Origin: Asterochloris sp. CNOR1
Lineage: Eukaryota; Chlorophyta; Trebouxiophyceae; Trebouxiales; Trebouxiaceae
DNA: 64,000 bases
Reading direction: 5' to 3'
Assembly: GCA_963969365.1 (NCBI GenBank)
Contig: OZ017749.1
Location: 3,782,001 to 3,846,000, forward strand
This document shows positions 83 through 55,504 of this stretch, in pieces. A program made the position numbers and the translations under genes. The notes under the pieces were generated by a model that worked only from the letters and a program-made list of their open reading frames with translations, was not told where the DNA came from and made no database searches. The first letter of the stretch is position 1. Every line of letters starts with the position of its first letter.

Positions 83-3000
83 CAGTGCTGACTCTGAGGT
101 GGTTGCGCTGCAGGAGAACCAGGACTGCTACCTGCTCCAGCTGGACCGCCCTGATGAGTGGTGCGTGATGGGAGTCTTTGACGGGCATGGAGTCTACGGC
201 GGCAAGGTCTCCTCGCACGTGCGCAATGCCTTCGCAGAGGTCCTCGGCTCTATGGATGGGCGCAGGGTGGGGCAGGACCCCCGCAAGGTAGAAACAGCGT
301 TTTTTGGGGGCTGCAGGAGGCCGCTGCAACGAGTAAAGATGGCGAGCCTGGACCTCTGCAAAGTACTGCTGTTTACTTGATCACCGCAACGAGAAATTGT
401 GTGCAAAGGCTGCACACAAAGAGGTGCTCAGCACTGTGAGCGCGCGCAGGATGGCACGACAAACCCTGAACCCTGCCAGACAGGTGCTCCTCATGGGATC
501 GGACTCAGGTGCGCGTCCTGGCAGGAGGGCGAGCACCTCTGCATGTCCTGCGTGCTGCTCAGGGCAGGGCAGCCGTAGGATGACAGGGCATGACCGTTGC
601 AGGGTCTGGCACCAACCGTGGCATGGCAAATAGTGACTGTGGCGCACCCTGGCAGGGCAGTGGGCATGCTCTCTCTGTCCTGCTTCACCAGCCTGACTGG
701 TCTGCAGCTATTTCGGTGGCTGCTCAGGACATGGTGTCTGCAAGACAATGCAAGATGATGTTCCTCTCGTGAGCCAGCCAGAGGGGTCCACCCAGGCTCC
801 GTCAGGGCTGACCCTGGCCGCCTGTGATTTGGCCAGTCAACCTATCATCTGCAGGCTCCCCTGCTGGCCCCTGCAGGCGCTGTGGACAGCCTTCCGTGAT
901 GTGCACGAGTCGCTGTCGGCCCTGCCCTACAACTTGGCTCGCAGCGGAACAACGGCTGTGGTCTGCATCGTCACTAAGAAATGGTGAGGATGGCGACTGC
1001 TTGTTTGTTGCAGATCCAGGGACTGTGGGTGTTAGGGCGTGTGTTGGTGTGTTCCTCGCCCCGGCACTGATGGGCAGGGCAGTCACTGCTTGCTTCAGAG
1101 TGCGGGCTGCCAGTTGCTCAGTCTTGAAGCGCTGATGATCAGTCAGCTAGCCCCCGCCTCACAGCACAGGCCCATGTATGCATACTTCTTGAGCCCTGCA
1201 ATCACAGCTAGTTTGCGCTCGGGAGTGCACATGGCATGGCTGCATTGTCATGAGGCAACGCTGGCGGCAGCTGTGGCTCCCAAACAACACAGGTAGCCAC
1301 AGCTGGGGCCAGTAGCAATGCAGCGAGCAGCTGCTGTGCACCTCACTTTTTCTGGCAGGCTGCCAGCGTCACTTGTTGAGGCTGCCTCTGAGGGGACCAC
1401 AGCCTGCCATGCCTGGCTCCTCTGCACCGCAGGCAACAGGAAGTTGCAGGCATTGTAAGTAGATCAGTCAGGCAGGGAGGAGCTGTGGCACAGGTCCTGC
1501 TAGGGCACCAGCATTGTGTTTGAAGACCTGCACCTACTGCCCCTGTAGGGTGGCCACAGCCTGGGCGGGCGACTCCCGCGCGGTGTTAGGTCGCCACACA
1601 GGCGCTGCCGACCCCTTCAGCCAGACGGTGGACTCGGCCGACGGGGCGGTGCTGACCACCACCCCTGGCCACGGCTCTCGGGAGGGGTCCCGAGAGGTTT
1701 CTCGGATTCCGCCCCGGACGCGCTCTGCAGAAAGCGTCTCCACCCACCTGGAGAGCGCTGTGCAGGAGGTCAGCCGCATGGCAGGTTGCCCACACGCCCT
1801 GGCTGCTGCAGCATGGTGTGGGGGTGCAGCATGCATTGAAGGGGGTGTGCTGGTAAGGCAGCTCCTGCCAGCCACGTCCACCAAGTTCAGGAGCGCAACG
1901 TCAGTCGTACCCTTCAGCACTTCCTGTCTTGCCACACAGAAGGCATCAGAATCTGGCGCAGGCAGCAGTGCAAAAACAGTTTCCAGGATTTGGGAGCTAA
2001 GCAGGAGGTCATGGCGCCTGACTCAGGTGGTACTTATGCGCGGTGTGAACCAGGAAGGGCAGCTCCAGGGTTGCATGCGTCAAGTTTGAACAATCACCAT
2101 CATCAGCACCCTCAGCATGCCAACGTTGATCAGAACCCCCTGTTATGAAGCAAGGCCCTGAAGGGTCTGGTCCTGCAGTCAGCTCCTTTCTGTCACAGGT
2201 CAGCTGGGGCTGACTGCAGGACCAGGCACAGGCAGATTCTCCAGGGCCCGGCTGACTGCTTCATGGAAAGCAGTTCAGCTGGGGGCTGACTGCAGGACCA
2301 GGCACAGGCAGTAGGAGGCATGTCTGGTGCTGCCAATGCGTGTCACGCTGCCTGGCGCCAAGCGGTCTACGCGCAGCTCCCAGCAGCTCCTGATGTGATC
2401 CAGGTGGAAGGAGGCAGCCTGGACGCAGCTGCGCAGTCCTCCGCAGCAGAGGCTGCAGCCGAAGGCGATGGGGCCTCGCCCAGTGGGGATGACTTGAGGC
2501 ATGGCTGCACACATCAGGTGGGGCTCGAGGTGGGTTTTTCATAGCACGGCGACCGTCTGCAGGGTGTCCAGCATTGCTGCCCACCCGGATTGCAGCCACA
2601 CCCTTGCCAGTCCGGCAAATGGCAGCATGCCGCTGACCAGCTGTCAAATTGGTACCATTGTGCAGCAAGCAGCTGCCCTGCTTTAGAACCATGAGAACTG
2701 AGCCCCTGAGCATGTGGCTGTGAGCCTCAGGGCCTGAAGGCAACCTGTGACCCTGCAGCCAGTGGCGGTGCCGCAGTCCCGGGGGGCACACTCTGGAGGC
2801 TGTGGATGTCTCTCAGGACTCCATTGAAGCTAACCTGTGACCTTGCAGGCAGCGGCAGGTTTGCAGCAGGGAGGGCACACACTGGAGGCTGTGGATGTCT
2901 CTCAGGACCACAAACCGAAGGATCCCCGGGAGGAGCGGCGCATCAATGCCTGCGGCGGGCGTGTGGACCGCCTCGTTGCAAGTGAGTGCCTTCGTGAGGT

Positions 3001-5738
3001 GCAGAGAGGGGGCATCAGTGCATGAGGCGGCTGTATAAAGTGCCTCAGGCCAGTGAGGGTAGAGTCCGGGCTTCAAGAGGTGTATTGAGGGAGGCATCAG
3101 TGCCTGTGGCAGAGTGTGGACTGCCTCGTTGAGAGTGAGTGCCCAGGGCTTTGCGAGGTTCAGAGAGGGGGCATCAGTGCTTGTGGCAGCTGTGTAGACC
3201 GTCCCAGGCCAGTGAGGGCCCAGGGCTTCTGAGATTGGCAGGGCCAAAATTCTTGTGGCAAATGGGTGGACCACCTGGTGGCCAGTGAGTGCCAGGGTAC
3301 TGGGGAAGCCTGCAGACTAAGGCATGACGCACTCTGGGGCACATCCACTGCTCTCAGTGGCTGTGCAGCTCGTTGAGGGCACACTTCTGGTGTCCTGCTG
3401 GGCACAGCATTCGGGCCTTCTTGTTGAGGCCAGCGAGCACAGCATCATCCTGCATGGCGGGGCGAGAGAGATGAGGATTGAGCTTGCATGCACAGTCAGC
3501 AGCTGCCCACTCCTTGCAGCAGGGTACAGCAACAAAGCAGTTGTTCATGCCCGGCCCTATGGATCAAGAGGCACAGCGCTGTTGAAACCTGTGGCAAGGG
3601 GCTTGCACAGGCTAGACACTCTGCAGCAGTGGCTGCAATGTGCACATGCTGTTGGTCAGACCAAGTGCCGCCCAGTTTGGCTGTCTCTGATCTGATCAAG
3701 GGTGCATGCAAATCAGTGGTGCGCGCTGGCGACATGCTGCTGGAAGAGGTCGTGGGTGAGCACGCCAGGAGAGGTCTCCCCTCCTCGGCAGTCTCCACTG
3801 CTTTTTGCTGAACCTGTGCTTGAGAGCCCTTGTGGAGGTGGGCGGCTGGTCACATCAGCTACCATGGCTGCACTTCTTCAGAGCTTTGTAGCCAGAATGA
3901 AGCTGGGCCACTCCTGGGAAGCGTCTGGCACCGCATGCACTGCCTGTGAGCAGCACAACTGAGGCAGCATCACACATGTCATCTTTGGGTCGAGCAGGGG
4001 ACAGTCACCAGCTGCCCACAGACCCTTTCATGCTGTGCTTCAGGGAAAACCTGGGGGGCGGCCTTAGAGGCTGACGCATCCCCATCAGGTCAGCCACATG
4101 CAGGCAGCTGCTGGAGTCTGCCGCCTTGCTCCAGTCTCTGGACATGCACAGCAGCCGGAAGGGCTGCCCGATGGAGCATGCTGCTGCTGCTGCAGTCTTG
4201 CCTGCTTCCCACTGTGTCTGACAGAATTTGGTTGGTGTGTGGATGAGGCTGTTCATCTGGCTCCTGGTGGTGCATACAACCTCCAGAGACGAGAGTGTTG
4301 GCCAGGCTCTGCACCTAATTGAAAGCAAGCAGTAGACAAGATGCATGGCTTGCTGGCATGGAGGCACATGCTTTGACCCCAGGTCAGCAAGACACGTATC
4401 CACTTTGTGATAGCGTGGGTCATTTGACACCTCTGTCAGCGGTAAACCACAAAACATCTGCCCAGCTGCCATGGTGCTCTCGCTCTGAAGAGCGCAGGAC
4501 TGTGCTCCCCAGGGCCTGTGCTAACTTACGCTCTGCCAGCTCAATCCTGATCTTCCATAGTGGTCACAGCATCAGCCCCCAGGCATGTGCTGTGCAGGTG
4601 ATAATGTCGTGGTTGGACCCTATCGGGTCTTCCTCAGAGATTCGTGGTCCCCGGGGCTCGCGTGCTCACGTGCACTGGGGGACGTCATGGCGGCCCAGGT
4701 GTGCAGGTCACAGCAGGCTCGAGGGTTTGTTTGTTTCAGATAAGTCGCATTGACTTCCTGCCCTCCGTATCAGAGACATGTCCTGCAAGGGACCCGTTGA
4801 GCACTCACACGGGTCTGTGCTCACGCTCCTGTTCTGCAGCACTGACTCTGTGAAGCTCAAAAATGATTGTGAAGAGGACTCCAAGCTTGATGACATCTGC
4901 GCTTTCTGCAACTCTGCATGCTGCAGTCATATGCGACCCTAAACCCTGAACCCTCTGATGGTCTGAGCAGCCTGCAGTGACGCGGCGCCCCAGCATTGGC
5001 ATCCACAGTTCAGGAAGCTTGGCCATGTGCTGCAGGCTGGTGTGACATGGCGCCCCAGCATTGACGTCCGCGAGCTGAAGCCCACAGATGAGTACCTCGT
5101 TCTGGCAAGTGACGGAGTCTGGGAGCTGCTCTCGTCCCAGGTAGGGTCAGCGGGCTGCCAGACGGCAGTTGGCGGTTACTCTCAGCGCCTGACTGGTACC
5201 ATTTGCCACTGCTCCATGTGACCTGCCTGGTGCAGCTGGATGACACTGCGCAGCCACATGCTGTCTGGCAGGTCACGCCTGTGCACCTCCTGCGCTTCAA
5301 GCGTTCGACCAGCAGCTGCAACACAGGCAGGCACATTGATTGGCAGCCACTCTCTGTGCAGTATCTTTGCGTTGCCCTGGCCATGGGCTGCATTGTTGAG
5401 GGGGAGACATTCCAAGGTTTCACGGCCAAGGGCCTGGTGTCGCCTGCAGGACCCTTGTGGCTGCCTGGCGTGATAATGGCAAGTGACCTGCCAATGCCAG
5501 CCCCAAACCCTGCCAATGCTGTGCTGAGGGGCCTGCTCACTCAGCAACTCCTGCCTGTGAATCGGCACTGACCGCTGCTCCCGCGTCTGTGCAGGAGGGG
5601 CTTGACATCGCTGGGAGCTGCCCATCCAGCAAGGAGGCAGCTGCAGCTCTGGTGCAGCGCTCCAGGGAGCGCTGGGCCACCATTCAGTCTGGACAGACAT
5701 GCGACGATGTCACAGCCATTGTTTGCAGGCTGCACTGA
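83..5738 (+). CDS. PP2C-type protein serine/threonine phosphatase (5' end outside window)
   Basis: Metal-dependent phosphatase that removes phosphate from Ser/Thr residues. Exons I can join in frame are 83 (or 113)-287, 877-983, 1549 to about 1767, probably about 2390-2517, about 2870-2981, 4598-4698, 5036-5140 and 5595-5738. They carry the family motifs in order: GVFDGHG (metal-binding Asp and Gly), SGTTAVVCIV, AWAGDSRAVLG, SQDHKPKDPREERRI with GGRV, GPYRVF...PGLACSRALGD, LVLASDGVWE and CDDVTAIV before the stop. Codon phase agrees at the junctions 287/877, 983/1549, 2981/4598 and 4698/5036. The exon at 2390-2517 is rich in Ala and acidic residues and lies in the usual variable loop. The N-terminus lies left of the window. 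The introns after 2981 and before 2870 and 5036 hold degraded copies of the neighbouring exon edges. The substrate is not predictable. Family assignment is firm; some exon limits are not. Confidence 0.9.
2155..2315. repeat. 77-bp tandem repeat in a PP2C intron
   Basis: A roughly 35-bp core (cagctggggctgactgcagg plus accaggcacaggcag) occurs at 2200-2234 and again at 2277-2312 with one base difference. A partial copy lies near 2165. It lies between the third exon and the next predicted coding exon. Confidence 0.7.
2755..3300 (+). repeat. Exon-edge echo arrays around the DHKP exon of the PP2C gene
   Basis: Upstream side: the start of the exon (tggaggctgtggatgtctct, real copy near 2883) occurs 88 bp earlier near 2795. 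Downstream side: after the real donor at 2982 four degraded copies of the last 45 bp of the exon follow. Their donor-like GTGAG positions are near 3053, 3135, 3212 and 3285, a spacing of 71-82 bp. The coding frame is lost in the copies but the splice-site core is kept. Confidence 0.8.
4937..4956 (+). repeat. Short telomere-like tract
   Basis: A single ccctaaaccctgaaccct stretch resembles plant-type CCCTAAA telomere repeats. It has only two to three imperfect units inside a PP2C intron. It is probably chance or a tiny interstitial remnant. Confidence 0.25.
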
Positions 5739-6163: not shown

Positions 6164-9100
6164 CTATTGCAAGTCTTTGAGATGCACTTCTGCAACATAA
6201 TCAGTTCCCAGGTGCCCCAGATAGAGGTTCCCCTTGTACTCATTGACAGCTGTGATAGAATGGATTCTCTGTGTGTCGTCATGGCTGAAGAGCTCCACAT
6301 GGCCTGCAGTGTTGACCTGCACAACCAGCATTTGCATGAGAGTCAGATGACCAGCTTGCTGACATATCGGCATGCTGTGCAAGCTTGGAACCTTGGGAGT
6401 CTAGGATATCTGCTGGCACAGAGCAGAGGGCACAGCATGTGTCCCATGCTCTTCACCACCATCATCTTTGCCATATACAGAAGGTTGAGGCAGAGCTAAA
6501 GGTCCCACACCAAGCCACAGCCCAGCCCCCTGTTTCCTCTGCTTTGGGTGCTGGGGGCAAGGTAGTGGGGGGGGTGGGGGGGGGGGGGGGCAAGTAGCCT
6601 TGCAAAGAGCAACTGACATCTTGGAACAGTGCAGCCCTGACCTGTCATGGCATGCAAGATACACAGCTGGGCCCCAGACCTGCAACAGACAGTTACCAAA
6701 CCACTCCGGTGCCCACCTTGATGATGGCACTGTGCGGAGGAGGTATGGGCTGCAGTCTGTGAGGCAGCCAGCTGACCAGCCAGCGCATCACAGGGCTCTT
6801 CATAGCTGCCACCAGAGGGGCCGTGAAGGGGGCCGGCATCGCCAGCCAGAACCCCCCATCGCTGGCCGTGCTGATGCTGTCGATCATGCCGGGGAGGTCG
6901 CGAACAAGCACCTCAGAGGTTCCCGCCTGCAGCAGCCATACTGTGGTGAGCGGCCTTGCAGCTTGCTGACTTATCATTAACCAGCTGGGTGAGCAGACAC
7001 GTCAGAGGACCCGTTCCAGAGCGTACCGAGGATTGGTTAGCAATCTTGCAGCCTGCTGAGCTGCCCTTGGTCAGCTCCATGATTAAGCACCTCAGCGCAG
7101 CCCTCTTGCAGCTCATAACATGCTGGTGAGCAGCCTTGCGGTGTGCCATGATCTCTCCAACCACAGTCACTTGTCTCCACCAGTGTTGTGCCTGGCAAGC
7201 CCTGCTAGACACGGTTGAGCAGCCTTGTAGCATGTTATGTGGCCCTCTGGGCAGACCACTGGTGCTGTACTTGAATGACGACACTGAACACTGCTTGCAA
7301 GCCTTGCAACTCGCTGAGTCCCCCTATTTGCAGCATACAGCTGGTAGATGGATAATGTGCTTGACAGACCCACACACTAAGAGGCCCAGATGGGCAGCAA
7401 CTGCCATGTACCAGTGCCGGTGGCAAGCAGCCTCTGGGGCAGCATGCCCACAAGAACTCACCCTGACCACAGCCTCAGCCTAGAGGCACATGCTGCACTG
7501 ACCCACCTCGGGTGCTTCCAGCCAGATGTGATGCTGACAGGCAGAGTTTCAACGATGATGACTGCAGAATTTGCAATGTGCACCGACCTTGGGCTCTTCA
7601 GTCAGATGTGCCACTAGCTGAAACAAGTGCTGCAGAACCTGCCACAGCACCCACACGGGGCCCCTGCCCAGAAGTCTCACCAGCAAGCAGCATTGCTGCA
7701 GGGCTTGCGGCAAGCACCAACCTTGCGCCCTTCACTGATATGCGCTACCAGCAAGCCGTGGTGCTGCAGACTCTATTTTTACCCCATGCACCTACCTTGG
7801 GCTCTTTACTGAAATAAGCTACTAGCAAGCAGCATCGCTGCAGAGCCTGTCATAAACCCCCACCTTAGAGCCCGTGAGCCAGTATTGCAGCAGGCAGGCC
7901 GTGTTGGTGCTGGAAACCACGACTGAGGCCTCGTCTTGAGCCAGCGCAACACCGTTGGCAGCCCATATCTGGTCCAGCAGCACCCTGGTTGTGCCAGTTA
8001 GAGGCTCATATGCCAGCAGTCGCCCGCTGGGTTCTCCCTGCAGATGGGCAGCAATCAATGTGAGTGTCAGGCTCTTGCTGCTGGCAATGCCCCTGATCTG
8101 GGCTTCCCCTGCAGAGTGTGCTTGAGACCCTGGCTTTTGCTAATGGCACTTCGTCGAACTGGCCTTTTCCCCTGCAGACAGGCAAGCCGTGTGCGTGAGA
8201 CTTTGCCTCTTGCTGCTGGTGCCCCTCTTGAATTGGGCTCCCTCTGCAGACAGGCAAGCAGTGTGCTGGCCCCTCTACTGGCCTGGGCCCTCCTCTCTTC
8301 AAAGGCTTTTGCTGCAGGCAGACAGGCACTGAGCTCTCAAGCATCTTGTGCAGATGGTCTCTGCAGCAACTCTGGTGTGGCAGCCTAGGGTGGTGCACCA
8401 CCAGCTGCCAGCCAAGCTCCCCTTGCAGGCAGACAGGCCAAAATGCCATTCACCAGCTCAGTGCTATTTCAAAAGCAAACAGCAGCAGGCACGTGCATGA
8501 GGTCCCGCTAGCAGGCATCGCTTGTGGCACCAGACCGCAGATCATCCAGGTGCTCTCTTGCTGTTGCACAAGCACCCAAGCTCGCCCTGGCCGCTTGCCT
8601 GCAGCAGGTTGGCCTTGTGCGCCGCCAGGAGGTCGTAGTGACCCTCCTCATCCCTGACGGGCTGCACGGCGGCCATGTCGGTGAAGTAGATGGTCCCATC
8701 GGAGGCGATGTCCAGGTCGTCCGCAAACAGGATCTCCGAGCCCTCCCCGGCGCCGGTGCCGGGCGAGACTCTAGCAGCCAGAATTGTTGTCTGCCGCGTC
8801 CTGGCGTCCACCTTGATCAGGCCCTGCAGGCGGGCAGGCACTGCATGATCAGATATGCAGTCAGCTTGGCTTTACCCAACCCACTGCATTTCCCCCCTCC
8901 CGCCCCCGCAGGCCTCCCAACCCCCAGCCGAAAGAGGCAGTCTAGGGCCGCTTCCACAAACCCAGCACACAGCTGAAGCCCACCTGCCCCTGTTGCAGTG
9001 GTGCACTTTGTGCGGCAGGGTTCCTTCCACAAGTCAGCACATAGCTGGAGCCCACCTGCTCCTGTCGCCGTGGTGCGGCAGCAGGCACAAGGTCAGCAGG

Positions 9101-9890: not shown

Positions 9891-12800
9891 ATGTTGGGAG
9901 GGCTGTATGGATCTCTGCCCAAGGCCAAAAATGCAGCCGAGCAGGAGGCAGAGGAAAACAAGGGGAGGCAGGCTGGCTGGGCTGCAGGAAGCATGGCTCC
10001 TCCAAGGGCCAAATCCAGCCTCTTTGCTCCATCCTCGTTGAAGGGTGCCGCCCCCAGGAGCAAGCCTACAAGTGCCACGCAAAGACAGCTGGCGATGAGG
10101 ACAGAGGCAGCAGCAGAGCCCAGCATATCAGGTGCGAAGTGGTGCTCGGCCTGTGCGGCTGGCACTAGCAGTGCAGCATCATCAAGGCCAGCACACAGGT
10201 ACTGGCGCCAGCGACATTAGCAGAGGCAGTGGGTCGGTGCCTGGCTGCCAGACATTCACGCTCTGACACTACTAGGCAGCTGGTGACACTGCGGCCTGAC
10301 ATCCATTATGAGCAGCGCAGCACTGTCTGAAGCTGCATGCTGTGCCTGCAGGTTTGGCTGCCTTTCCAAAGCACAACACAACCAGCGCATGCTGCACATT
10401 GATGCTGGGCCAAATAGCACTTGTTGAGCAGTCTATGGCGCCAGTGCGCCCTCAGAATTGGCAGCGGCAATCTGCCATCACGTCGGACTCGTTATCACAC
10501 TGACCTCACCCTGGTGCGTGGTTGACCCTTAGTTGTTACAGGGTTGTAGGCGGGGAGGGGTGCTGCTGCTCATGCCCAGCCTTGGAGGGAAAGTCAGGGA
10601 CCCAGTTGCACATGCCGTGCAGGACGCGTGGTGTCAGTGCACCAGCAGGGCGGCACAGGCAGCTTTGACCTGAACCTGCGGGATGAGTATGACCCAGCCA
10701 AGCCCAATGACTACGAGGAGATCAGGCGTCAGAGGGAGCAGCAGCGCATCAGTGCAGAGCAGGCCGCGCAGCAGCAGGAGGCCCTGCGGGCGCAGCTGGT
10801 GGCTCAGGAGGTGAGGTCAATTGTCCAAGCAGTTGTTAATCAGACAACGCCTGCATGCCAGAGTTGGAGCAGGAGAGGGAGGTGAGAAGCGGACTGCGCA
10901 GCAGCAGGAGGCCCTGAAGCCACAGCTGGTCGCGTTCAGGAGGTGAGGGCAACGTCTTACCCTATGTCTCTCAGACACCGGCGTCATGTCAGAGTCAGAG
11001 CAGGAGAGGGAATAGAAGCAGGCTGCACAGCAGCAGGAGGCCCTGGAGCGGCAGCTGACTGCTCAGGGAGGTGAGCTTTACATTCTGCCTGTGATGTGCT
11101 CCAACATCACCAGTATGCCTGTTCAGGAGGTATGACTGGATGTGCAGGCCCCAACAGCAGCAGAAGTGCCAGACTGGTGCCTCCGCCTTGCATGTCAATG
11201 CAGCTGGCCAGTGGTTTCTGACAGAGGGTGCTTTGGTGCTGCAGGCAGCTGCGCGGGCGGTGCTGGCGGCGGCAGTCAAGCCAGAGGAGCGGGAGGTTGC
11301 ACTCAACGTGACTGGAGAGGAGGCCTATGCACGACGTGCCAGGTCAGGCCAGAACGGGGGCGGTCACCGATGACCCCTGCAGGCACATGTTGCAGCAGGA
11401 GTGCAAAGGCTCGTGCACTTGTGCAGGGGCCAGCGCCGACAGCTGCATGACTTGGCATGCAGCAACTTTGTCAGCTACTGCTGTGTTGGCTTCAGAACAG
11501 CCAGTCAGGGACTCAGCCGTCGGCAGTGAAGGTGAAGTTCATATACAGGCGCAGGGTGGGTGGGGTACGCACTGAGGGATTGTGTCGCTTTCTTGTGATA
11601 GGCCAGCTGCTTTTGCTAAAGACAATGCATCCAGCGCTTCTGTGGAACCCGCTGCGCGCTGCAAAGCCCTGGCTGCCTTTGCGGTGCAGATTGACTGCTG
11701 GTGGCGGGGCAGTGCCAGACGGCCTGACGGGCAGTGCGGCAGAGCAGCTCGAGCAGGCGGCACAGGCCATGGGCGGAGGGGCGCGCGGGATGGACCTGGC
11801 AGCCAAAATGATGCAGCGCATGGGCTGGAAGGAAGGTAGGCAGCATGGCAGCCATCCTCTGCCTGCATCTTCCCCTCTGCCCCTGCCTATGTCTCCCCCG
11901 ATGACATGTCAGCGCCGCCATGCCCACCATGGGATCAGCTGCTAAGCAACATGCACCCACACGCACGGACAAGGTGTGACGGACCTGCTGCAGTGGCTTC
12001 GGTGCAAGCAGCCCACTCGCGCGCCTGCAGGCTCTGGGCTGGGGCGCAACAAGCAGGGGATCGTCACCCCCCTCATGCACCAGAAGACGGACAAGCGCGG
12101 GGGCGTCATCGTCTCTGGGCCTGACACCTGGAATGCAGACGCCAAGGCTGAGGATGGGGGTCCAGAGCAGAAGCCAAAGGTTGGTGGAGTCCTGCATTGC
12201 TGCCTGTCAGGCTGCGTATCCAGGGGCACAGCACAGGACGACAGTGGGGCAGGACTTATAAGTGCACATGTGGCAGTTCACATCTGGGCTGACCCAGGCT
12301 CTGCAAGCCAGCTCAGGCCACTGGGGTATGTCAGGAGGTACACAGTGTCAGCTCCGGCTGGGCATGCCTGCAAGACGCTGCCAGAAGCTAGCAAGGCCGC
12401 CGACTCCTGGCGCTACCCTGCGGTGGGGCCTTGCTCAATGTGCGCTGGCAGGCCTGCAGAGGCGCACCCGCAGAGTTCACAGATGTCTGGGCACACTGTG
12501 CACCTGCTGGGGTCAAGTGGCCCAGGCATGCTCATACACTGCTTGAGGTGTCTGCAAGAAGCAGCGAGCTCTGTGCCTGCAGGTCGCAGCCATGAGCCCA
12601 CTTTTCTGTTGGTCCTGAATTGCCTGGCGGGTAGGCATGAACTGCTTTGTCTGCTTGTAGGGAGCAAGCGTCCGAGGCACGCCTACGCGCGTCATCTTAC
12701 TCCGCAACATGGTAGGCCCGGGTCAGGTGGATCCCGAGCTAGAGGAGGAGGTGGCACAAGAATGCACCACCAAGTATGGGGCAGTGCAGTCAGTGATGAT

Positions 12801-13377: not shown

Positions 13378-13438
13378 GGCTGCTGCACTGCCATCACTTT
13401 TCCCCTCTATCACTGAGTGGCATGTCCCTCCCTTATGC

Positions 13439-14439
13439 TCAGTGGTAGCCTTCACGCCCAAAGTCAAGGTGCTGTTGCATCTGCATGCATAAGTTGACCC
13501 TTAAGACTCCATGAAGGGTTGCAATGGCCCATGCATGAACAACATAATACAAAGCCATACACACCTTTGGCATGGGAGGGTTGCGCTGAAACAACGAGCC
13601 ACCAGGGTAGTAGGGCACTGCAGGAGACAAGCTTGTCAGCTGTTGTGCCAAGTGGATGCATGCGTGCCTTAAGAGCTGGAGATGCGTAGGACAAATTTGT
13701 ATTCAACCCCAATGTCGCACCAATGATGGGGTCTGGATGAAGCTTCTCCTTCAACCTCTGCTCTCCCTTCTGCAGCAGCCTCTCCACCTGCAGGGTGTCC
13801 TTCTGCAGCACGGCACAGGTGCAGCACATGTCACCCAGCGGCCTCAGACCCAGCAAGATGCGGCTGCACTGGCCTTTGTGGTGCCAACGCAGTCCCAGGG
13901 TGCCATCCAACCTTTATCATGAACAAGCAGTCTGAGCTGCAGCTGCAGTGGCTCTCAGGGTGCCAGTGAAGCAACTTGCACACTATGCTGCAGCAGCCAC
14001 AGTAGCTTTCATGGTGCCAACGAGCATGTCACAAGTTCTTGAGCAGCAGCTCACCACATGCGCGTTCTGCTCAAACTCTCCCCGGAGCTTGAGGCCCTGC
14101 AGCAACAGGAACTAACCTCAAAGGTGAAATGCTGCATAAATTTGGTCATAGGACAGCAGGAGTGTATTGCAAGGCTGCCAGGCCACATGACCGGTCCCAG
14201 TGCAGGTTGAACAACCCCAGCAGTCAGGCTGGTAATTCGAACAGCATGCTGCCTGCTATTGCTGGGCCACAGCTCAACATCAGCCAAGCCTGTGGGCTGT
14301 GCTGTAAGCAGAAGCAATGCTGATGGCCGCGCACCTCCTCCCACCACAGCTCTCGCCTGATGGCATAGTACAGAATCTGCTTGAGCCCATGGCGATACAG
14401 ACGCATGGCTCTCTGCCTCTGCAGAGCCTGAACGGACAT
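13439..14439 (-). CDS. NDUFB9: Mitochondrial complex I subunit B22 (LYR protein), plant CIB22 type
   Basis: Five exons join in phase to 107 residues: 14439-14335, 14096-14055, 13802-13721, 13617-13565 and 13480-13439. The LYR-type motif RAMRLYRHGLK (residues 10-20) is followed by RRELWWEE, GLKLRGEFEQNAHV, an amphipathic VERLLQKGEQRLKEKLHPDP helix, IIVPYYPGGSLFQRNPP and a short FGREGYH tail. This is the block order and length (about 117 residues in Arabidopsis) of the plant complex I B22 subunit. LYR proteins bind acyl-carrier protein and act in the matrix-side assembly of the membrane arm. The start is the first ATG before the LYR helix. The gene is compact compared with its neighbours and divergent from SRPRB. 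Confidence 0.85.
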
Positions 14440-14774: not shown

Positions 14775-17006
14775 ATGGTGGCCATGAATGCAACACCTGT
14801 GCCAGAGCTTCTGGATCATTTCTCAAAGCCAGATGCAGTCTCCATCTTTCTGGCTCTGGCTGCCCTGCTGCTCATGATAGGTGAGCCAGGCAGAGCATCC
14901 ACGCTGCCGATATTTTGGATGTCTCTTGGCATGAACGAACTCAAATCTTGGGCTTGCACCGTCCCTTGGAGAGACTCAGAACACACAGCATGCCACAGCA
15001 GATTGCAGTGTCTGCACAGCTGCATTGTGTCTGCAGGCCTCCTGCGCATCCTGTTTGCGGGACGCAAGGGGGACATAGTCCTCTTCCTGGGACCAGCAGG
15101 CGCAGGGAAGACCACCATGTACCTGCAGCTGCGGGATGGGACACTTCACAATGGCACAGTGGCCAGCATGGCAGAGAATGTCAGCCGCTGCATGCTGATC
15201 CATGAGAAGGTGCGGGCTTTTCCAATGCAGCGCTTTCAGGCCTGCATCTTGCTGCAATTGCCTTGCGGCAGCGTGTCGCTGCATGTGCACAGCCCGCCTG
15301 GGTGTGCAGGTAGTGTGCAATGTGCAACCTCACCTGCGACCTGCATGGATGCTGGAACCTTGTGGTGGTGATGTCTCATGCATTAGGCAGCTGTACCAAA
15401 GCACAACCATCTGGCATCTTTCAAAGATGCATGTCTGATGGGGGAAAGGCGCCCCTGTGTAGCACATTGGCCTGACACATGATTGACAATATCTGCTGGT
15501 GGAACGCTGGCGAGCAGGCCAACGCAGCTGGTGGTCAACCCCTGGCAGTCTGAGGGTGTGACAGATGCACTGCCTGCGTCTGCAAGGCTGGCAGAGCAAG
15601 CCTGGCTAGACGGTAAGCGTTTGCTGCAGTGTGTGTGCAGAGGCCTGTGCAGCTGGCGGATGGCCAGTGCAGTTTGTGGGTGACCCTTGGGCAGTGCGAT
15701 GATCTGTTAGGAATGCCGCCACTGCTCCTGACGTGTATGTGCAGGGGCGTCGTGGACGGCCAGTGCAGCTTGTGGGTGACCCTGGGCAGTTCGATGATCT
15801 GCTTGGAATTTTGCCACTGCTCTTACTGTGTGTGTGCAGGGGCGGCGTGGCCGGCCAGTGCAGCTTGTGGATGTCCCAGGGCACCCCAAGATTCGCGGCC
15901 GCTTCAGGAGATATGCGGACCAGACTCGCGCCATTGTCTTCGTCGTGGACTCGGTCGACTTTATGCCCCAAAAGACTGACATTGCAGAGTCAGCCACCTG
16001 CTTTTGGAAGTTTACGTTTGGTTGCATGGACAGTGACCCACCTTTACCGCATGTTTGCAGACTGCACGAGCTCCTTAACAGCCTGACTTCGTTTGCTGGC
16101 ACCTGCCAGCCCCTAGCTTGTCTAGCCGGCGCTCAGGCTGCATGGCTTCATGCTCCTGTGGGGAGTGCTGTGTCTGTCTTTTCAAGGTCCTGGCCAGCCA
16201 TGCATCAGCAGACCTCTGAAGATCACCTGCATGCAGCTGACTGCACATTTCTTGCAGCATGAGGCTGTCCATGACTGCAGCACTAGTCATGCAGGCTGCA
16301 TCTGCAGTGTTCCAGGTTATGCAGAGGTAAATGGACCACCTGAACCTGCATGAAGAGTCTCACGGCATGGCTGCCGTCCTGCAGGCAGCTGCTTGAGGTT
16401 TTGTCAGAGACCCCCATCCAGAAGCATCGTGTGCCCCTCATGTTGGCCTGCAACAAGGCCGACGAAGGTGCCAGGGCGCACACAGTGGACTTTGTCCGAA
16501 AACGGCTGGAAAGGGAGATGTGAGTCTGAGTGGCATCTTGTGCGGAGGTTGGCTGGGAAGGAGACACAAATCTAAGTAGTAAATCAGGCAATAATTGAGG
16601 GGCGGCAGGCCTGCGGACTCTAGGCAGCTGCGCAGCATATGTGGAGGTCATGCGTGGGCCGCAGAGATGTCTTGGTTGGGTGTGCAGCAGCACAATGTGC
16701 CTGTGGGCAGTCTTTCTTCCACCATGTTGGCGGTGCTGACAGCTGCATGGTGCAGTGGTGGTCGACCGCTTTGGCCCAAGCTGTGTGTGGCTGTTGTGCA
16801 GTGACCAGCTGCGGTCAACCAGGTCAGCGCTCGGGGATGGCACATCTAGCAAAGCCTCAGACATCTTGGGGGACACAGGTAGACCCTTCAATTTTGAAAC
16901 ACTGGCCAAGTGTCGGGGAATCAGATTGACTTGCATCAGTTGCTCAGCCAAGGAGAATGAGCTACAAGAGGTCCAGACCTTTGTCAGGCAGCATGTGCGC
17001 ATCTAA
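14775..17006 (+). CDS. SRPRB: Signal recognition particle receptor subunit beta (small GTPase)
   Basis: ER-membrane GTPase that anchors SRP receptor alpha. Exons seen: 14775-14880 (N-terminal anchor, AVSIFLALAALLLMI), 15037-15209, 15840 to about 15980, about 16385-16515 and about 16811-17006. GTPase motifs are G1 GPAGAGKTT, G3 DVPGHPKIRGRF (here DVPG rather than the usual D-x-x-G spelling), G4 ACNKADEG and G5-like SCSAKENE, with RPFNFE before the C-terminus. Phase agrees for 14880/15037/15209/15840. The join between the third and fourth blocks is unresolved and may contain a small exon near 16045. The intron before 15840 carries three tandem copies of the acceptor region counting the real one. 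A TGTAA lies 17 bp after the stop. Confidence 0.9.
15610..15900 (+). repeat. Acceptor-side echo array in SRPRB
   Basis: The intron end plus the first 45 bp of the exon (gtgtgcag then ggccagtgcagcttgtgg) occur three times, with acceptors ending at 15640, 15744 and 15839 (spacing 104 and 95 bp). Only the last copy leads into the GTPase G3 exon. The region between copies (gatgatctg...ttgccactgctc) is repeated too. Confidence 0.9.
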
Positions 17007-17022
17007 CGTTGCAGCAGTGGTC

Positions 17023-17162: not shown

Positions 17163-20100
17163 CTAGTGCTGCGGGGGTGCCTGGTAGAGGGTCTCAGACT
17201 CCTCAGGGAGATTCTCATAGAAGGCGAGGCTGCTGCTCTGCCTCCTGCGCTCATAGTACTTGTACCCCGCAATGAGTGCCAGGACTGCGGCAGCGAGGCC
17301 CAGCAGGGTGAAGCCCACGCCCATGGCCACTGATCCCTTGGTTGCCGACTTGCTTGCTGGTGGGCCTGCACATACAAAGACCCTCAGCAAGCACCTCTGA
17401 ACATGCAGAGTAGGCAGGGGGGGAAACCTGACATATCAGGTGTGCTGCAGACCTCAATTAAACCTGCTTGCTGCTGCGGAGTGCAGTGTGGAACACTTGA
17501 CACAGAGGTAAGGCAATGACCGCTACCCTGCCAATGATTCTGGCATGGTCTCACAGCTGCTGAGAGCAAGGGGGTTGGCACATACTGACAGAGGGTGGCT
17601 TTGATCATGCAGCGGCAGGAGCTGCCCAGCACCACGCCTGTCAGGCCGCAGCAACATGAACCTCACCTCCGGGGGCGACATACTTCTCTTCCCACTTGGT
17701 CACAGAGTCCTGCGAGGCATCATCGATGATGCTGTGCTCCTCCCCAAGCAGGCCGCCCTTGCCGGCCATCCAACCAAAGACAGCCTGCACAGGAGGCATA
17801 CAAACGTCAAAAATGATGCTCTGTATGTCCTACTCCACCTTGCAGGCATCCAGTTGAAGACAGCCTGCACAAGGGGCAAACAAGCGTCAAACGAGATGCT
17901 GTGTGCGTCACTACGCCTGATTGTCATCCACCCAAAGACAGCCTGCGCACAGGGCAGACAAGCGTCGACAGTGATGCTATGTGCTCCAGTCCACCCTGCA
18001 GCCATCCACCTAGAGACAGCCTGCGCAGGACGCAGACAATCATCAGAAATTTTGTGCTGTATGCTTCACTTCACCCTGCAGCCATCCACCCAAATACAGC
18101 CTGCGCAGGAAGCAGACAATCATCAGTACTTCTGCTGTATGCTTCACTTCACCCTGCAGCCATCTACCCAAAGACAGCCTGCACAGGAAGCAGACCAGCA
18201 TCTGAAGTGTACCTTATACTTCAGCAGTAGGTGCAAGCGGGCCCTGCCTAGTATTCAGGCACAATTGCACACGGCGTAGCGCCCACTCCAGCCAAGGGTG
18301 CCACACAACCTTGGTGGTGGAAGTGCCTGACAAGCTGCATGCATTTGTGCACACAGGATGCTCTCCTTGGCCAGCTGCACCACCTCCTGCTGCTGCACTG
18401 CCTAAGTCGCCCCCCCTTAATGCTCTCCACAATACTGCGAGGAGCCCACTCTGGCCAGCTGCAGTGCCATCAGCTGCTGCATCACCCTGAAGCCAAGCAT
18501 GTGGGTCCCCGCGCTGTTGTACACAACAAGCTCATTCCAGCCAGCTGCAGCGCCATGAGCTGCTGCACTGCCTTAGGAGTCCCAGCTTGCCTTCAAACCT
18601 GCTTACAGGCTCGGGCGAGCAGCCTGTGTGAGCCTTAGCCAACACCAGCCATCCTGGAGCGTGTCACCAGCAGTCACATGCTCTCACCTTCGCCAGCTGC
18701 AGCGCCATGAGCTGCTGCACCGCCTTGGGGCCGGGGTTGTTCGTCCCTGCGCACCACTTGCCCGCATCGGTGCAGGTGGTGACCTCGGGGGTGGCGCAGA
18801 AGCCGACGAAGCCGGGAGCGCTGCTGGGGCTGTACAGGGAGCACAGTGGCTGGTTGGCGATGCCGCCAAACATCTGGACAGAGAAGTCGGCAGGGATGCG
18901 GTCGTCGGTGGCCTGTGGGCAGCAGCGTGAGCAGTGGGCCTGCGCAGGAGCAGCGTGACAGCACCAGCGCGACAGCAGCAATCAGCAGAGAGCGCGGCAG
19001 CACCAGCAAGACAGCAGCCACCAGCAGGGAGCGTGGCAGCCATCAACATAGAGCATGACGGCACCATCAAAACAGCAGCCATCAGCAGGGAGCATGGCAG
19101 CCGCAGAACAAGAGCTCAAGAGTTGCACGACAAGAGCTGCGGGACAGGAGCGGGGAAACACGCATTGCATCAGCAACAGTACACATTGCAAAATGCCAGG
19201 AGGCTCCAACCACTGCAGTCTTGCCCAGCACCGAGACTGCACGATGGCCACAAGCCTCTGCCTCAGCAGCAACCTCAGACCACAGATGATACAGCAGACG
19301 CTCCAGAACCCCACACTGCCACAAAATTGCCCATTTGCACTTCTGACCCTGACTTGCCGTCCGGCAATATCACAGATGGGTCAGGGACCTCATTGGCATG
19401 CAGTGTAAGCAGGCTATGGCAGCAGCTGAGCCAGTCAACTGCTCACCCGGTCAATGCCGGCCACGACGCCCGACAGGAGATCGCCAAAGGTGCTCTGCTC
19501 CCCGCAGCCGCAGCTGTCGATGACTGCCTCACACATCTCGCGGCAGGGCCATGCCAGGCTCATGGCCTGCAGGCACACAGCGCGGAACGGTCAACACAAC
19601 ATGCCAGCTGTTAAGGCACGATGTAGCAGGAAACAGCCCAACACTCCGACCACACAGGGTTTCACACGTCAGCCATGCAACACTTGTTGTAATCAATGTT
19701 GGCCTGGCAGGGGCTTTCAGCACACCCCCAGGTGTGCAAGAAGCCAGCAAGGACGGGAAAGGCAGGGCTTGCCTGAAGAAGTCCTGGAATGGCCTCTCCA
19801 AGGGCCTGCACTGCATTCTCGCCAAGCTCCTGGGCATTGAGCACACTGGCAACGGCTGGCAAGACGCCCGTCTCCACGTTGCTCTGGAAGCTGCCACACT
19901 TGGGCACTGTCTGGCTGCACCACTGCAGGTGAAAACAAGGAGAGTAGATATTTGAATCAGAGCAGTGGTGAGCTGCACGCCAAGGCACAGAGGGCAGACA
20001 AGCACCGCTGTCCCACCCAAGAGCAAGGCAGAAGAGAGTGTGTGTGCCCTGAAGGCACAAGGAGGAGCGCCTCAAGCAGCACGGGGGAGCTTGAAGCTGC

Positions 20101-33817: not shown

Positions 33818-36800
33818 ATGTTCAGTACTACAGACATACTCTTGAGGGTCACATGGGGGGTCACATGGGCAGCCACATATGCATTGCTGCACCTCATATC
33901 TGCACAGGCAGCTCAGTCCGACGATTGTGAGTACCCTCCCAACATGCCATGTGAATCTGTACTGATGCTGATCCCAGCTTGTGCGTGCGGTCGCATTGTG
34001 GTGCCTCTGCTTGTCCATGGTAAGCTGTGGCCCCTTGACATGGCACCTCTCTTGCCTTGCAGACACCTGCATGTCTGGCTTGGGAGCAGGCATTGGGGAC
34101 CCTCAGGGCCAGTTGACAGGCTGGAAGCCACCAAACAACCCTGTCTGCGTGGCCGCCTTTTATTATGGGATATTCATAGGCTACGCCTCCACAGCCACAG
34201 GGGTGACCTGTAGTGGCAGTGGCCTTATCACAGCAATGTGAGTGCACTGTTGGAGCAGCACTCGTGGTACACTGCTTTCCACAGGCGTGCAAGCGCATGT
34301 CACACTGCTTACACTGCCGAGGCAGCAGTGAGTCTGCTGCATGCCATAATCCCACCAGAGCAGCTTGAGGGCACTGACTCCTGGGGCTGCACTGACTGCT
34401 GGCGTCCTGTCAGTCTTGAACTCCCTCTGGGAGGCTCTGGGCTCTCGTCTGCTACAACAATTGCAACGCCAGCACGCTGATTGCACGCCAGCCGATTGCA
34501 CGCCTCGGGCGCTGTCATGGACTGCAGCAGCAGGCGCTTTGCTGCTTGCCAATGCCTCGCCACATCCTGTGAGCTAGTATAAGAGTGCACCTGCCTGCTG
34601 CTTGCCAAGATGGACACCTCGCCCTCTGATGGCCGTGAGCCCTGTTGGACTTGCGCTGCAAAGCCGCGTGGTGCCTTGTTTGTATATCAGGGCTGCAAAA
34701 GATCTCCCTGCTCTTGCTGTCTGCAGTGCTGTGAACAGCTTGGGGCTAACAGGCACCATCTCTCCCAGCGTCTCATCCTGCACTTCCATGACCACCTTGT
34801 GAGTTTGGCAAAGCACACTTCTCGGCCAGTCTGCACTGCTTTGGACGTCTGCTGCCACATGGCTGCCAATGCTGTTCAGCAAGATAATGCTACTTGATCT
34901 GCGTGGCTTATTGCACATTGCAGCAGGTGCCTGTTGACACCGCTGTGTGACAGTGGCTGCCTGTTCCGCAGTGACATTGACACTAATGTCTTGGTGGGAT
35001 CGCTGCCTGCCAGTCTGTCTTCTTCAACTCAAATCACATCCTTGTGAGTCCCTTTCCTGGCATGCTTGCTGGCTGATCAAGTCAAGCAACAGCCAGTCCT
35101 TGTTGATTTGCCGTGGCATGTGCAGTCTTGTGAAAGCTTCAGCATGGTCAATGCTGATTTGTTTTGGTGTTCTTCTTCAGCAATGTGGCATACAATTCTG
35201 CGATGTGCGGGGCCAACCCCTTCACAAACCCCTCAGTACTCCAGTCCTCAGGCACAGCCATTGGGACCACATGCGCACCGTGAGTAAGGCTAAGCCACTG
35301 TGCCCCACTGCACTCTTGCAATTGAGGCAGTAGGTGGCCTGGAGAAGCACAGTAAACACGCCCCTGCCTGCCAGCTTGCTCATCGCATCCCTGAGCTGCC
35401 TTGAGCACCTTCAGATCCTCACAGTTGTTGCTGCTCATTGCTGGCCTAGCTTTCTGAGCAACACCTCTGCTGTCCTGCAGTCCGCCGCCACCTCCGAGTC
35501 CTCCATCGCCTCCTCCGAGGCGGGCAGTGTCTTTGTGCACGCTATGTCAACTACCAGATGTTGTACAATTGAGCTGTGCTGGCACACTTTCCACACTTGC
35601 AGTTACTGCTGTCATGCGCTCCGCAGCCTGAACCTGTTGCTTTGTTGCCTGCAGTCCGCCACCGCCTCGCCCACCTCCAAGCCCTCCACCTCCGCCCCGC
35701 CCACCTCCTCCCAGGTGCTGATTGCTGCACTGTCTTGCACTCACTGCCATCTGCTTCTGCAGTCCGTCCCATGCTGCCTGGGGCTAGCAGCTTTCTCAGG
35801 CGGCCCGATTGCTGCACTGCATGCTGCCTACATGTTTTGCTGCTGCTCATGCCTAAGCGCAGAAGCGTCTGCCTGCAGTCCGCCACCGCCAAGCCCACCT
35901 CCACACCCTCCACCGCCGCCAAGCCCACCTCCTCCCAGGTGCTGATTGCTGCACGCACTCCCATCTGCTTCCCACAGTCTGTCTGATGCTGCCTGGCTTG
36001 TCGCTCTCTGAAGCGCTCTAGTCACTACACGACATGCTGCCTACTTCAGCTGCTGCTGATCATGACCTCAAGCAGCCTGCCTGCAGTCCGCCGCCGCCAA
36101 GCCCACCTCCCAGCCCTCCACCGCCGCCCAGCCCACCTCCTCCCAGGTGCTGATTGCTGCGCTGTCTTGCACTCACTGCCATCTGCCTCCTGCAGTCTGT
36201 CTGAAGTTGCCTGGGGCTTGCAGCTTTCTAGTACCGCCGCGGTTGCTGCGCGGCATGCTGCCTACATCTGCTGCTGCTGTTATGCTGAAGTGCTTACCTG
36301 CAGTCCTCCACCGCCAAGCCCACCTCCCAGCCCTCCACCGCCGCCCAGCCCACCTCCTCCCAGGTGCTGATTGCGGCGCTTTCTTGCACTCACTGCCATC
36401 TGCCTGCTGCAGTCTGTCCAAAATTGCCTGGGGCTTGCAGCTTTCTCAACCGCCCCAGTTGCTGCCTACATTGGCTGCTGCTGGTCATGAAATGAAGCGC
36501 CTGCCTGCAGTCAACCACCGCCGCACCCACCTCCAAGCCCTCCACCGCCGAACCCACCTCCAAACCCTCCGCCGCCGCCTCCAAGTCCGCACCCACCTCC
36601 AAGCCCTCCGCCACCTCCGCCGCCACCGCCATTGAGGCAAGACTGCTGCTGATTTCAGTGCCAAGCTGATGAAGCATCAGCTGTGACACGACTGGCTCTG
36701 CTATGTTTGTCCGCAGTGTCGTCTGGCTGCCCAATACTGCAGGCGCAGTGCATGCTACCATGTTGTTTGCTCCCTGACCCTTTCCTTGTCTGCCTGCAGT

Positions 36801-52687: not shown

Positions 52688-55504
52688 ATGGCTTCATCAG
52701 AGCAGGTGAGACCTTTGAACACAGCTGCACATCCATAGCCTCAAGCTGCCATCTGTGCACCTGGCCTGACTGCTCAGACCCAGCGTGGCTGCATCAGAGC
52801 AGTGGGGCAGCTACATTGTCCAGCACATCTGGCTGCAAACACTGGCAAAGCAGCCCCAACAGCACCCAGAGCTGGGCCCTCCTTTCACTCAGGATCGCCC
52901 TGTGAGGGTCATGCCCCTCTCAGGGCTCAACTCTGCTGGTCTTAGGACCTGTGTTTGTTGCAGCTACCCTGGGTCTGGCAGTCAAACGGTGCATCAATTG
53001 GCTGGAGACAGGGACGGCGGACATGGCACTGAAAAGCAGGGGAAGCTGCTGAGACAGCTTGCTGTCTGCAGGCAGCCCCCATTGGTGCGTCAACCAATGC
53101 CATGCGGGCCAACTGGGACCACACAGCAAGCACCTACAATGACTTTGTGACGGGCCAAAATTTCATGGGGCCATCACGTGACCGCATCCTGGCAGCTGTG
53201 GCCACTTTTGCTAAGGAGCATAAAGGCAGGCGCTTGGCATCACTCCCTCATCCTCCCATTCTTGTCGGGACTTTGCTTGCAGCGCACGCCACCAGCTGCA
53301 GGGGATTTCCCGACTCTCACCTGACCTGTAAGCGTGAGGACAGCACTTAGCTGCTGGGTCTGCACTGCTTGTTGTCTCAAGGTCCAAAGCCAGTTTTTTT
53401 ACCAAGGGCTGCAGGCCGCTTGAATGAATTTGACCCGGCTCGCAGGTTCAAAATGACCCTGATGTCCCCATTAGTGCATGCAGCTGCACAGACATGTCAG
53501 GGAAGCTGCCCCTCTGCCTGCAGGCCTCTGGCAGTGCTTGACCTGAAGAATGCATCATGCCACATGGGCGCTTGTTGCTAGTCGACATGCTCAACCTGAA
53601 CAGGCTGGCACTGCATCTGGCTAATCATCCAGCATCCCAGCGCTCGCTGCATGCCCACAGTGTCCAGCCCTGATTGCAGTGCAGCCTTGGTGTTATGAAG
53701 AAGTGCGTCAGCTCAATTGCTGGGCCATGTCCGCCGAGGATACTTTGCAAGGCATCACGCGAGCTGCAGAATTCTGCTGCAGTGCATCAGCCTGAACAGA
53801 TGCCTCTTACAATGGTGGTGTGATACAAAGCAGCCCTAACTCTTCAGCATTCGTGCTTCTGACTGCAGGGTCCCTGAAGGTACCAGACTCGAACGCCTGG
53901 TGGCTGGACCTTCCTGCATACCCTCACAGCATGCAGTGTGTTTCTCCTGGTGGCCTGTCGGCCTGTTTCTCCTGGTGGCCTGTCGGCCCACTCACCGAAT
54001 CTTGCTGCAAGCCCAGTGACCGTTGACGATGTGCACCTGTCCCTGCAGGGCCTCTGACGGTGTTTGACCGGCCGGTGGGCCTGGCAGTCTTGCCACCCCT
54101 ATCTCACAGGCATGCCCCTGCCGCGCTGCCGGCAGGGCATCACCGCAGCTGTCCCTGTGACCTGAGGCACCGATGTCGCTGCACGCCTCACGTGCTCTCA
54201 TTGTGCCTGCAGGGCAGAACCTTCAGGTTCTGGACTTAGCCAGTGGGCCCGGCGACCCCGCCATCCCAATTGCCCAGGCCCTGCCCCAGGCACAGGTCAC
54301 TGCCACAGACCTTGCCCCTAAGATGTGCCAGCTTGCAGCCCAGCGTGCCAGGTCACTGGGGTTGACCAACATCACTGCACAGCCAGCCGATGCCCAGAAT
54401 CTTCAGGACTTTGGGGACAGCAGCTTCGACCTCGTGACGTGCCAGTACGCTGTCTTTGCGCTGCCAGACTGCGACAGCGCCCTGCGCGAGGTGTTGAGGG
54501 TTCTGAAGCCCGGTGGCCTGTTTGTGGCTACCTGCTGGGGCAAAGACTCTGACACAATGAACGTAAGCACTGCAACACCCAGAGTGATTGCAACCACCCA
54601 CCAAAGCCAACTTGAGCAGACATCTCATAGATGAGGCACAGCCCACCCAGGGTGGAGTTGGCTGGGTGTTTACAAGCCTGATCTTTAGTCTAGTTGGCCA
54701 TACATTGCATTCTGCCAGGATGTTTCCTCTGTTGTTGCCAGATTTGTGGTGTGGTGTTGCCATCTGTGCTGGTGCACACAGCAGCTTCTGTCGTGCTTGC
54801 TGATCATGCCTGAATAGCTACGTCCTCAGCATGTTTTCTAAGCTAGTGCGCTAAATCATCTCTCTGCACACTTGCAGTTCACTATGGGCCTGATGGCTAG
54901 GTTTATGCCAGGCTTCAAGGCTCCTGACATGAGCCCCTTCTACCACGACCACCAGTTCATCTCAAGGATGACGGGTGTGGGGTTTCAGCAGGTGGATAGT
55001 TACAAAAGCCACAGTCTATCTCACACACTGGGGTGGCGCACTGCCATTAAGCCAGCAGAAGGGCTGTCGCTGGCACATGATCAGGTCAATGGCAGCCCAT
55101 GTCGTGGGCTGCCACATCAACGTGCTGGGCTGTTCATTCTGCCTCTACCTGTCTCACTTACTATGGCTTGTGGTGCAGGCAAAGGCTGAGGTCTTCCATC
55201 ACCGGCTCGAGTCCTCTGCCGACGCCATAGCCTCCATGCAATTCGGTCAAGGTGGTTTGATGGAGATGCCCTTCAAGAAGGCTGGCGTAGCCTATGGCAA
55301 AGCTCGCGAGGTAAGCAAATTGTCAACACTTGGCCCTCTGGTGCAAGGATGCCACCGGCACCTGCTTGGGCCCAAATTGGGCTTCCCTTGCTGCTGCAGT
55401 ACATGGAGCAGGTTTTCAAGGAAAGGGGCTGGTGCACCAATGGCGACCTTAGCCATGTGGTCATGAACAGCAGTTCCCTTATGTATATGGCTTGCAAGGC
55501 ATGA
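52688..55504 (+). CDS. Class I SAM-dependent methyltransferase (UbiE/Methyltransf_11 type)
   Basis: Six exons join in phase to 290 codons: 52688-52705 (MASSEQ), 53072-53225, 54213-54562, 54878-54991, 55179-55310 and 55400-55504. Motif I is VLDLASGPGDPA, the acidic motif II VTATDLAPKM, motif post-II NITAQPADAQNL, motif IV SSFDLVTCQYAVFAL and motif V ALREVLRVLKPGGLFVATCWG. The N-terminal NWDHTASTYNDFVTG helix is typical of small-molecule methyltransferases. The substrate is unknown. The second intron seems to start with GC (AAAG|GCAGGC), inferred because only this join keeps phase. The last exon and 3' flank lie in the right arm of the inverted duplication. The first exon end is echoed near 52788 (tggctgcatcagagcag). 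Confidence 0.85.
53519..54240 (+). repeat. Acceptor-side echo array in methyltransferase intron 2
   Basis: The real exon start at 54213 (ctgcag|ggcagaaccttcaggttctggac) is preceded by degraded copies at 53524 (ctgcag|gcctctggcagtgcttgac), 53869 (ctgcag|ggtccctgaaggtaccagac) and 54049 (ctgcag|ggcctctgacggtgtttgac). Spacing is 345, 180 and 164 bp. All keep CTGCAG. Confidence 0.75.

Follow-up and report, generated by a model that had tools for sequence, protein, structure and literature searches.

The window, a 64-kb stretch of the genome of Asterochloris sp. CNOR1 (G000:C4:3782001-3846000), contains a row of predicted genes whose introns carry degraded copies, here called echoes, each paired with a template at the edge of a neighbouring exon. 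Pfam matches identify PP2C, a strictosidine-synthase-like protein (APMAP-like), SPF45 with G-patch and RRM domains, SRPRB, an LYR protein, a nucleotide-sugar transferase (XEG113-like), a methyltransferase and a polycystin channel fragment; the Frizzled-like fragment submitted to Pfam had no match at E≤0.001. The small gene of the complex I LYR family lies at 13439-14773 (minus strand), between SPF45 and SRPRB. All gene models are ab initio predictions, made without transcripts by a simple predictor trained on this sequence, and SPF45 is the sole model that was compared with a homologous protein: the top named entries among the best 120 of its at least 827 matches come from Trebouxia spp., at 55-57%. 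The SPF45 intron at 10811-11244 is absent from the Trebouxia protein, with which the intron-removed protein aligns at this point without a break.

Most echoes in the window are about 75-95% identical to their templates. In PP2C (plus strand), the acceptor echo at 2196..2235 matches its template 2271-2311, with the predicted exon start at 2296, at 39 of 40 positions and an offset of 75, and a second one at 2735..2808 has its template at 2825-2897 (exon start 2849, 62/70). Downstream of the exon ending at 2981 lies a donor-side array (2996..3229) with a unit of about 77 bp, whose best donor echo, 3094-3180, matches template 2940-3021 at 71/81 positions; a weak acceptor echo is found at 4967..4995 (template 5032-5060, 24/29). 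The APMAP-like gene (minus strand, Pfam Str_synth) has a weaker acceptor echo at 7085..7139 (template 6906-6959, 44/52) and a weak donor echo at 7682..7707 (template 7824-7849, 23/26). SPF45 (plus strand) contains a donor array of three copies at 10758..11075, in which a unit of about 130 bp combines 53 bp of the exon end with about 77 bp of intron; the echo at 10888-10952 matches template 10758-10820 (exon end 10810) at 54/63 positions, and a further copy ends at 11075. The acceptor array of SRPRB (plus strand, 15658..15883, exon start 15840) has a unit of about 95 bp, and its echo at 15710-15788 agrees with template 15805-15883 at 68 of 78 positions.

On the minus strand, the Frizzled-like region carries an acceptor array at 17765..18206, with about 5.6 copies of a unit of about 78 bp and a best echo at 17838-17904 (54/67), and an echo of the exon near the donor 18678 at 18540..18577 (template 18692-18729, 36/38). 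Also on this strand are a weak donor echo at 23299..23335 (template 23755-23791, 29/37) and an exon-side echo of the predicted exon 23765-23933, located at 24619..24669 with its template at 23868-23918 (40/51, offset about 750). The XEG113-like gene (minus strand, Pfam Nucleotid_trans) shows a donor echo at 27106..27161 (template 27184-27239, 47/54), an acceptor echo at 27526..27591 (template 27417-27481, 49/65) and a weak acceptor echo at 28365..28396 (template 28288-28319, 26/32).

A match at 36049-36140, a candidate intron echo, belongs instead to a whole-exon tandem array at 35645..36550 (plus strand), in which each unit of about 217 bp comprises a predicted 60-bp (20-codon) exon and an intron. 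This array appears as an in-frame exon duplication, with coding repeats of SATAKPTSTPSTAAKPTSSQ-like segments, beside a polycystin-like gene. The polycystin-like gene has a tandem duplication with a 490-bp period at 47557-48610, spanning predicted exons and introns, and two similar polycystin-channel-like gene parts, at about 43000-51000 (plus strand) and 56000-63900 (minus strand), flank the methyltransferase gene as an inverted segmental duplication. The methyltransferase region contains a perfect 25-bp tandem repeat at 53939..53988 (plus strand) and repeated CTGCAGGG-like acceptor cores, and none of the intervals of this gene rises above the echo threshold. A sequence-only reading of the window had placed echo arrays in at least seven genes; they are clear in PP2C, SPF45, SRPRB, the Frizzled-like region and the XEG113-like gene, weaker in the APMAP-like gene, and the methyltransferase drops out of the list.

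Exon-edge echoes across the genome

The analysis covered the window together with 25 stretches of 10 kb taken at random from this genome (20, then 5 more), whose assembly comprises 56.38 Mb in 21 contigs; GC content was 0.56-0.61 across 26 chunks of 10 kb. Asterochloris glomerata is described with a genome of 56 Mb, a GC content of 56-62% over 98% of the genome and 9 introns per gene (PMC6652019). A stricter second predictor was used, the first version having over-split genes, and it called 60 genes with 681 introns in 264 kb. The predictor fuses neighbouring genes, with only 5.8 kb called intergenic, and tests were therefore run on intervals between strong exons, namely the 150-2500 bp between predicted exons scoring at least 15 and at least 70 bp long. 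The set held 311 intervals initially and later 346 (68 in the window, 278 in the random stretches); some include short exons or intergenic stretches, and 207 of the 346 have no predicted exon inside. As controls, each edge was compared with other intervals of similar length and with its own interval in reverse complement.

When exon edges with their splice sites are compared with their own interval, about one interval in five (71/346) contains at least one echo. The 99.5% control is exceeded by 38/346 donor and 44/346 acceptor edges, against 1.7 expected for each; the window alone accounts for 9/68 and 13/68. The random stretches give 29/278 and 31/278. Exon-only edges of 60 bp match their own interval above the 99% control in 26/311 donor and 31/311 acceptor cases (3.1 expected for each), so the claimed resemblance of introns to their own flanking exons survives comparison with unrelated intervals; the reverse complement of the own interval yields 4 and 2 (n=311). 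The corresponding numbers for the 20 random stretches are 20/243 and 25/243, with 2.4 expected and 3 and 2 for the reverse complement. Within intervals free of predicted exons, exon-only edges give a weaker donor signal (8/187 against 1.9 expected, reverse complement 4) and 17/187 at the acceptor (reverse complement 1), and edges with splice sites give 12/207 and 19/207. Of 82 echoes, 70 lie clear of every predicted exon and 12 overlap one, which scores at least 15 in 3 cases.

Echoes are commoner in longer intervals (3/81, 15/116, 20/71, 25/62 and 8/16 by length class), which also offer a larger search space. As the sequence-only reading had stated, they sit on the side of the exon that they copy: 28/33 donor and 33/40 acceptor echoes have a relative position below 0.5, nearer to the copied exon. 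Genome searches with four arrays (PP2C, SRPRB, Frizzled-like and SPF45), in which only the best candidates were scored, found no match outside the own locus. With own-interval matches far above those to other intervals, this agrees with the earlier judgement that the arrays are not a dispersed introner element. The sequence pattern is thus real and widespread in this genome; no description of exon-edge echo arrays was found by title or abstract in the open-licence literature.

Local tandem units and their size

Repeats in the analysed DNA are predominantly local and direct. At 40 bits or more and offsets below 1.5 kb there are 69 near direct and 8 near inverted repeats, and between chunks 11 repeats reach 40 bits over an 83-fold larger comparison area, 5 of them exceeding 200 bits. 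At score 32, direct pairs number 144 and inverted pairs 7, and the copies are arranged head to tail in tandem, as TRF arrays. The window holds 76 of the 144 direct pairs, though it makes up 64 of 264 kb, and is therefore richer by repeat count. In older duplicates, the alignment does not extend over the full unit.

Plain diagonals in the 20 random stretches gave 96 segments at offsets of 10-499, 49 of them at 70-150 bp; 300 control offsets yielded 2 segments. The offsets form a broad peak at 70-150 bp and a smaller one at 15-20 bp. An offset floor near 60-80 bp, seen in a BLAST self-comparison, was discarded, as the plain diagonals show shorter offsets, mainly of 15-20; near-diagonal culling by the program is the suspected cause of the floor, and the 70-150 class stands. 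This class could be taken to reflect minimal intron length, through a ratchet or zero-length-exon splicing at AG|GT, a reading that was set aside because mid-intron pairs show similar offsets. Short-period repeats (10-49 bp) rarely touch junctions, with 2/25 arrays in the random stretches and 0/15 in the window.

The echoes have lost the coding pattern, as had been claimed: along 70 diagonals the mismatch is 0.167, 0.170 and 0.181 at codon positions 1, 2 and 3, without a codon-position pattern. Offsets between exon and noncoding partners show no in-frame excess, with 19, 18 and 33 pairs for remainders 0, 1 and 2 modulo 3, an unevenness that is borderline.

Duplicates at splice junctions and probable intron growth

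Duplicates are most often detected at splice junctions and also occur inside introns. In equal 60-bp blocks from intervals no shorter than 330 bp (score 30; frequency in controls not above 0.26%), a duplicate was present in 20/195 and 29/195 junction blocks, 16/195 and 15/195 exon-edge blocks, 8/195 and 14/195 intron blocks beside the junction, and 3/136 and 1/134 inner-exon blocks. Mid-intron blocks had one in 10/273 cases (control 0.11%), so that internal direct repeats are above chance and the same process is indicated inside introns at a lower visible level. The 25 random stretches contain 46 exon-involving and 22 noncoding arrays, a ratio of 2.09, with 6 more arrays in which both copies are exonic; neutral simulations at a constant rate give 0.61-0.68, i.e. 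the observed ratio is roughly threefold higher. The window, with 10 exon-involving, 20 noncoding and 8 both-exon arrays, shows no junction excess.

Detected pairs score mostly low, meaning that they are old, and the counts are best fitted by a neutral model in which ages are free and junctions are not preferred. Its -logL is -110.19, against -103.86 for a threefold excess, which is 6.3 log units worse, and the six count classes are fitted as 10.8, 6.4, 2.6, 25.1, 15.0 and 8.0 (observed 12, 7, 3, 25, 15 and 6). With an age trend fitted jointly with a free junction excess, the excess is 0.62. When constraint, indel rate and exon cut-off were varied in six further settings, an excess of 0.5 or 1 was best in 6/6; a threefold excess was worse than one by 3.0-6.4 log units and a twofold excess by 1.2-3.0, so that a twofold excess is disfavoured relative to one, though not firmly. 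The estimate of total events is too variable for use (453-1436 per 250 kb at an excess of 1 in the six settings, 627 in the age-trend fit).

Introns in this genome have probably been lengthened by neutral local tandem duplication, which is seen through the conserved exon edges. Segments mostly of 70-150 bp would duplicate locally in tandem anywhere in introns and thereby lengthen them. Where a segment spans a donor or acceptor, one copy would continue to serve as exon edge and functional splice site, the outer copy presumably always being the spliced one, and the other would be left in the intron; the coding sequence would therefore remain unchanged while the intron grows. The intron copy would decay unconstrained, the exon copy being held by selection. 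Inside an intron both copies of a duplication would decay and it would disappear from view earlier, whereas across an exon edge only a single copy would be lost, and for this reason visible fossils would concentrate at exon edges. The duplication events themselves are taken as neutral, and their units may be generated by repair of staggered or paired breaks, and breaks or slipped repair are the most likely source of the head-to-tail copies, about 100 bp in length. Selection would purge copies that add codons, and intronic or one-edge copies would be tolerated, as splicing would continue at the outer junction.

Several results count against neutral growth or fit it poorly. The constant-rate model requires a 2.41-fold junction excess and still fits poorly, and the explanation thus rests on there having been few young events. 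This deficit of young events in the fits weighs against it, and young copies that are still identical could be removed by recombination, giving such a shortage. Simulated echoes reach further into exons than those observed, with a coverage of 0.56 against 0.06 at acceptor +45 and of 0.39 against 0.05 at donor -55, and a larger share of them spans the junction. Mismatch at codon position 3 does not exceed that at positions 1 and 2, whereas neutral synonymous sites in the template would predict more.

A junction-specific process, with a preference for splice sites in the origin or retention of duplications through a mutational hotspot or a benefit of spare sites, is unlikely. The array ratio of the random stretches and the roughly 3-4 times higher frequency of duplicates in junction than in mid-intron blocks argue for it, but models with free ages do without the excess, the window shows none, and homology is no more junction-centred than simulated (10/21 and 22/32 echoes span the junction, against 0.80 in simulations). 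It is improbable that selection maintains the splice cores of echoes, whether as decoys or for alternative or stepwise splicing. To keep the core from aiding echo detection, it was masked in the query and read off afterwards. Acceptor cores were identical at 143/180 positions (0.79), above exon blocks (133/186, 106/174) and intron blocks (120/228, 74/144), and donor cores at 84/126 (0.67), with 100/168 and 89/144 in exon and 59/150 and 33/66 in intron blocks. A neutral echo of a fixed template predicts, by arithmetic from the exon and intron values, about 0.70 for the acceptor and 0.61 for the donor core. Donor retention thus fits a neutral echo of a conserved template and acceptor retention lies slightly above it, a small excess to be read with the fact that positions within one block are not independent. 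The earlier reading held that splice cores are often kept; donor cores are often lost, with GT kept in 8/18 masked-core blocks, and TGCAG is kept in 18/30 acceptor blocks. Interval interiors show no sense-strand surplus of TGCAG (972 sense, 1115 antisense, trinucleotide expectation 933) or of GTGAG (186, 190 and 177), and the offsets have no in-frame preference. The small acceptor-core excess is weak evidence in favour of selected decoys. Together with the constant-rate junction excess, the units of about 70-150 bp and the short reach into exons, it keeps in play a reading somewhat less probable than a junction-specific process at large, namely junction-focused duplication or retention. Putative echo acceptors (branch region and TGCAG) would then be spare or stepwise splice sites, and introns would have grown as series of such junctions, spaced at about 100 bp, which is close to a minimal intron length.

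The Rogers model, in which tandem duplication of exon segments containing AGGT gives rise to introns, has a close to negligible chance of explaining the pattern. AG|GT donors and tandem duplications do coexist here, but that model predicts the upstream exon end at the 3' end of the intron and the downstream exon start at its 5' end, and such crosswise homology is absent (0/346 own intervals against 1/346 controls at a score of at least 24). Hardly more credible is an artefact of assembly error, gene-model error or chance similarity from CTGCAG-rich composition. In its favour are the ab initio gene models, the weak donor signal in exon-free intervals and the very frequent CTGCAG (197 in the 64-kb window). 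The last cannot be counted as fossil acceptors, as it reflects mostly trinucleotide composition (470 in interval interiors, 395 expected from trinucleotides). The controls, however, were other intervals of the same genome, the excess survives masking of the core, most window echoes have diverged from their templates as assembly duplicates would not, and the great majority of echoes overlap no predicted exon. Neutral growth explains the pattern better than a splice-site process with selected decoys. From the sequence-only reading, intron growth by local, direct duplication is retained, and longer intervals do carry more echoes. Its tie to splice sites is not, given similar duplicates in mid-intron and a junction excess that vanishes with fitted ages, and little speaks for the selected decoy sites that it suggested. 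Copies that seem to cluster at splice sites may do so through better visibility, and such clustering should be interpreted with caution.

Relation to known systems

Intron growth in this genome is best read as a variant of internal gene duplication, a process reportedly described by Gao and Lynch in 2009, whose work is cited in PMC4974935 and PMC3443670. In both, the duplicates lie wholly inside genes, touch introns and exons, have their source in the same gene and are arranged head to tail. They differ here in the unit class of about 70-150 bp and in the detection of old copies through exon anchoring. In this setting one source of intron DNA can be seen and counted: like a slow clock, an exon edge keeps one copy legible, and old intron duplications could be dated and counted in well-annotated genomes.

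Introner elements are dispersed similar copies, by which many introns of one genome share a common process of origin. Such a shared process also applies here, whereas the four arrays searched, with the best candidates scored, match their own locus only. Green algae have unusually long introns. A comparison around Chlamydomonas describes median intron lengths of 198-343 bp and regards the driver of length as likely ancient (PMC8226300).

Tandem genomic duplication is listed among the mechanisms of intron gain in a 2012 review, with 188 events (PMC3443670). In the potato RdRp gene, a tandem duplication across an acceptor boundary is described as having made a new intron (Ma et al. 2016, PMC4974935). 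As in the echoes, the duplicated segment crosses the acceptor boundary and carries an exon edge with splice signals; in the potato case as described, a new intron arose and part of the copied exon is used, whereas the copies here appear within a longer intron. For Daphnia pulex, 55/90 new introns are reported to have internal direct repeats, read as lengthening at staggered breaks (Li et al. 2014, PMC4202315). Internal direct repeats are likewise above chance in the introns studied here, but the Daphnia introns described are young, with listed exon-intron repeats of 4-12 bp, and the present copies are long, old and located in established introns. Fill-in at break ends is reported to make small tandem duplications in mouse and human cells, where the human genome is described as having them as its commonest short insertions, those below 100 bp (Schimmel et al. 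2021, PMC8355091). The local head-to-tail copies of Asterochloris resemble these duplications, whose mechanism is demonstrated in mammalian cells according to that source.
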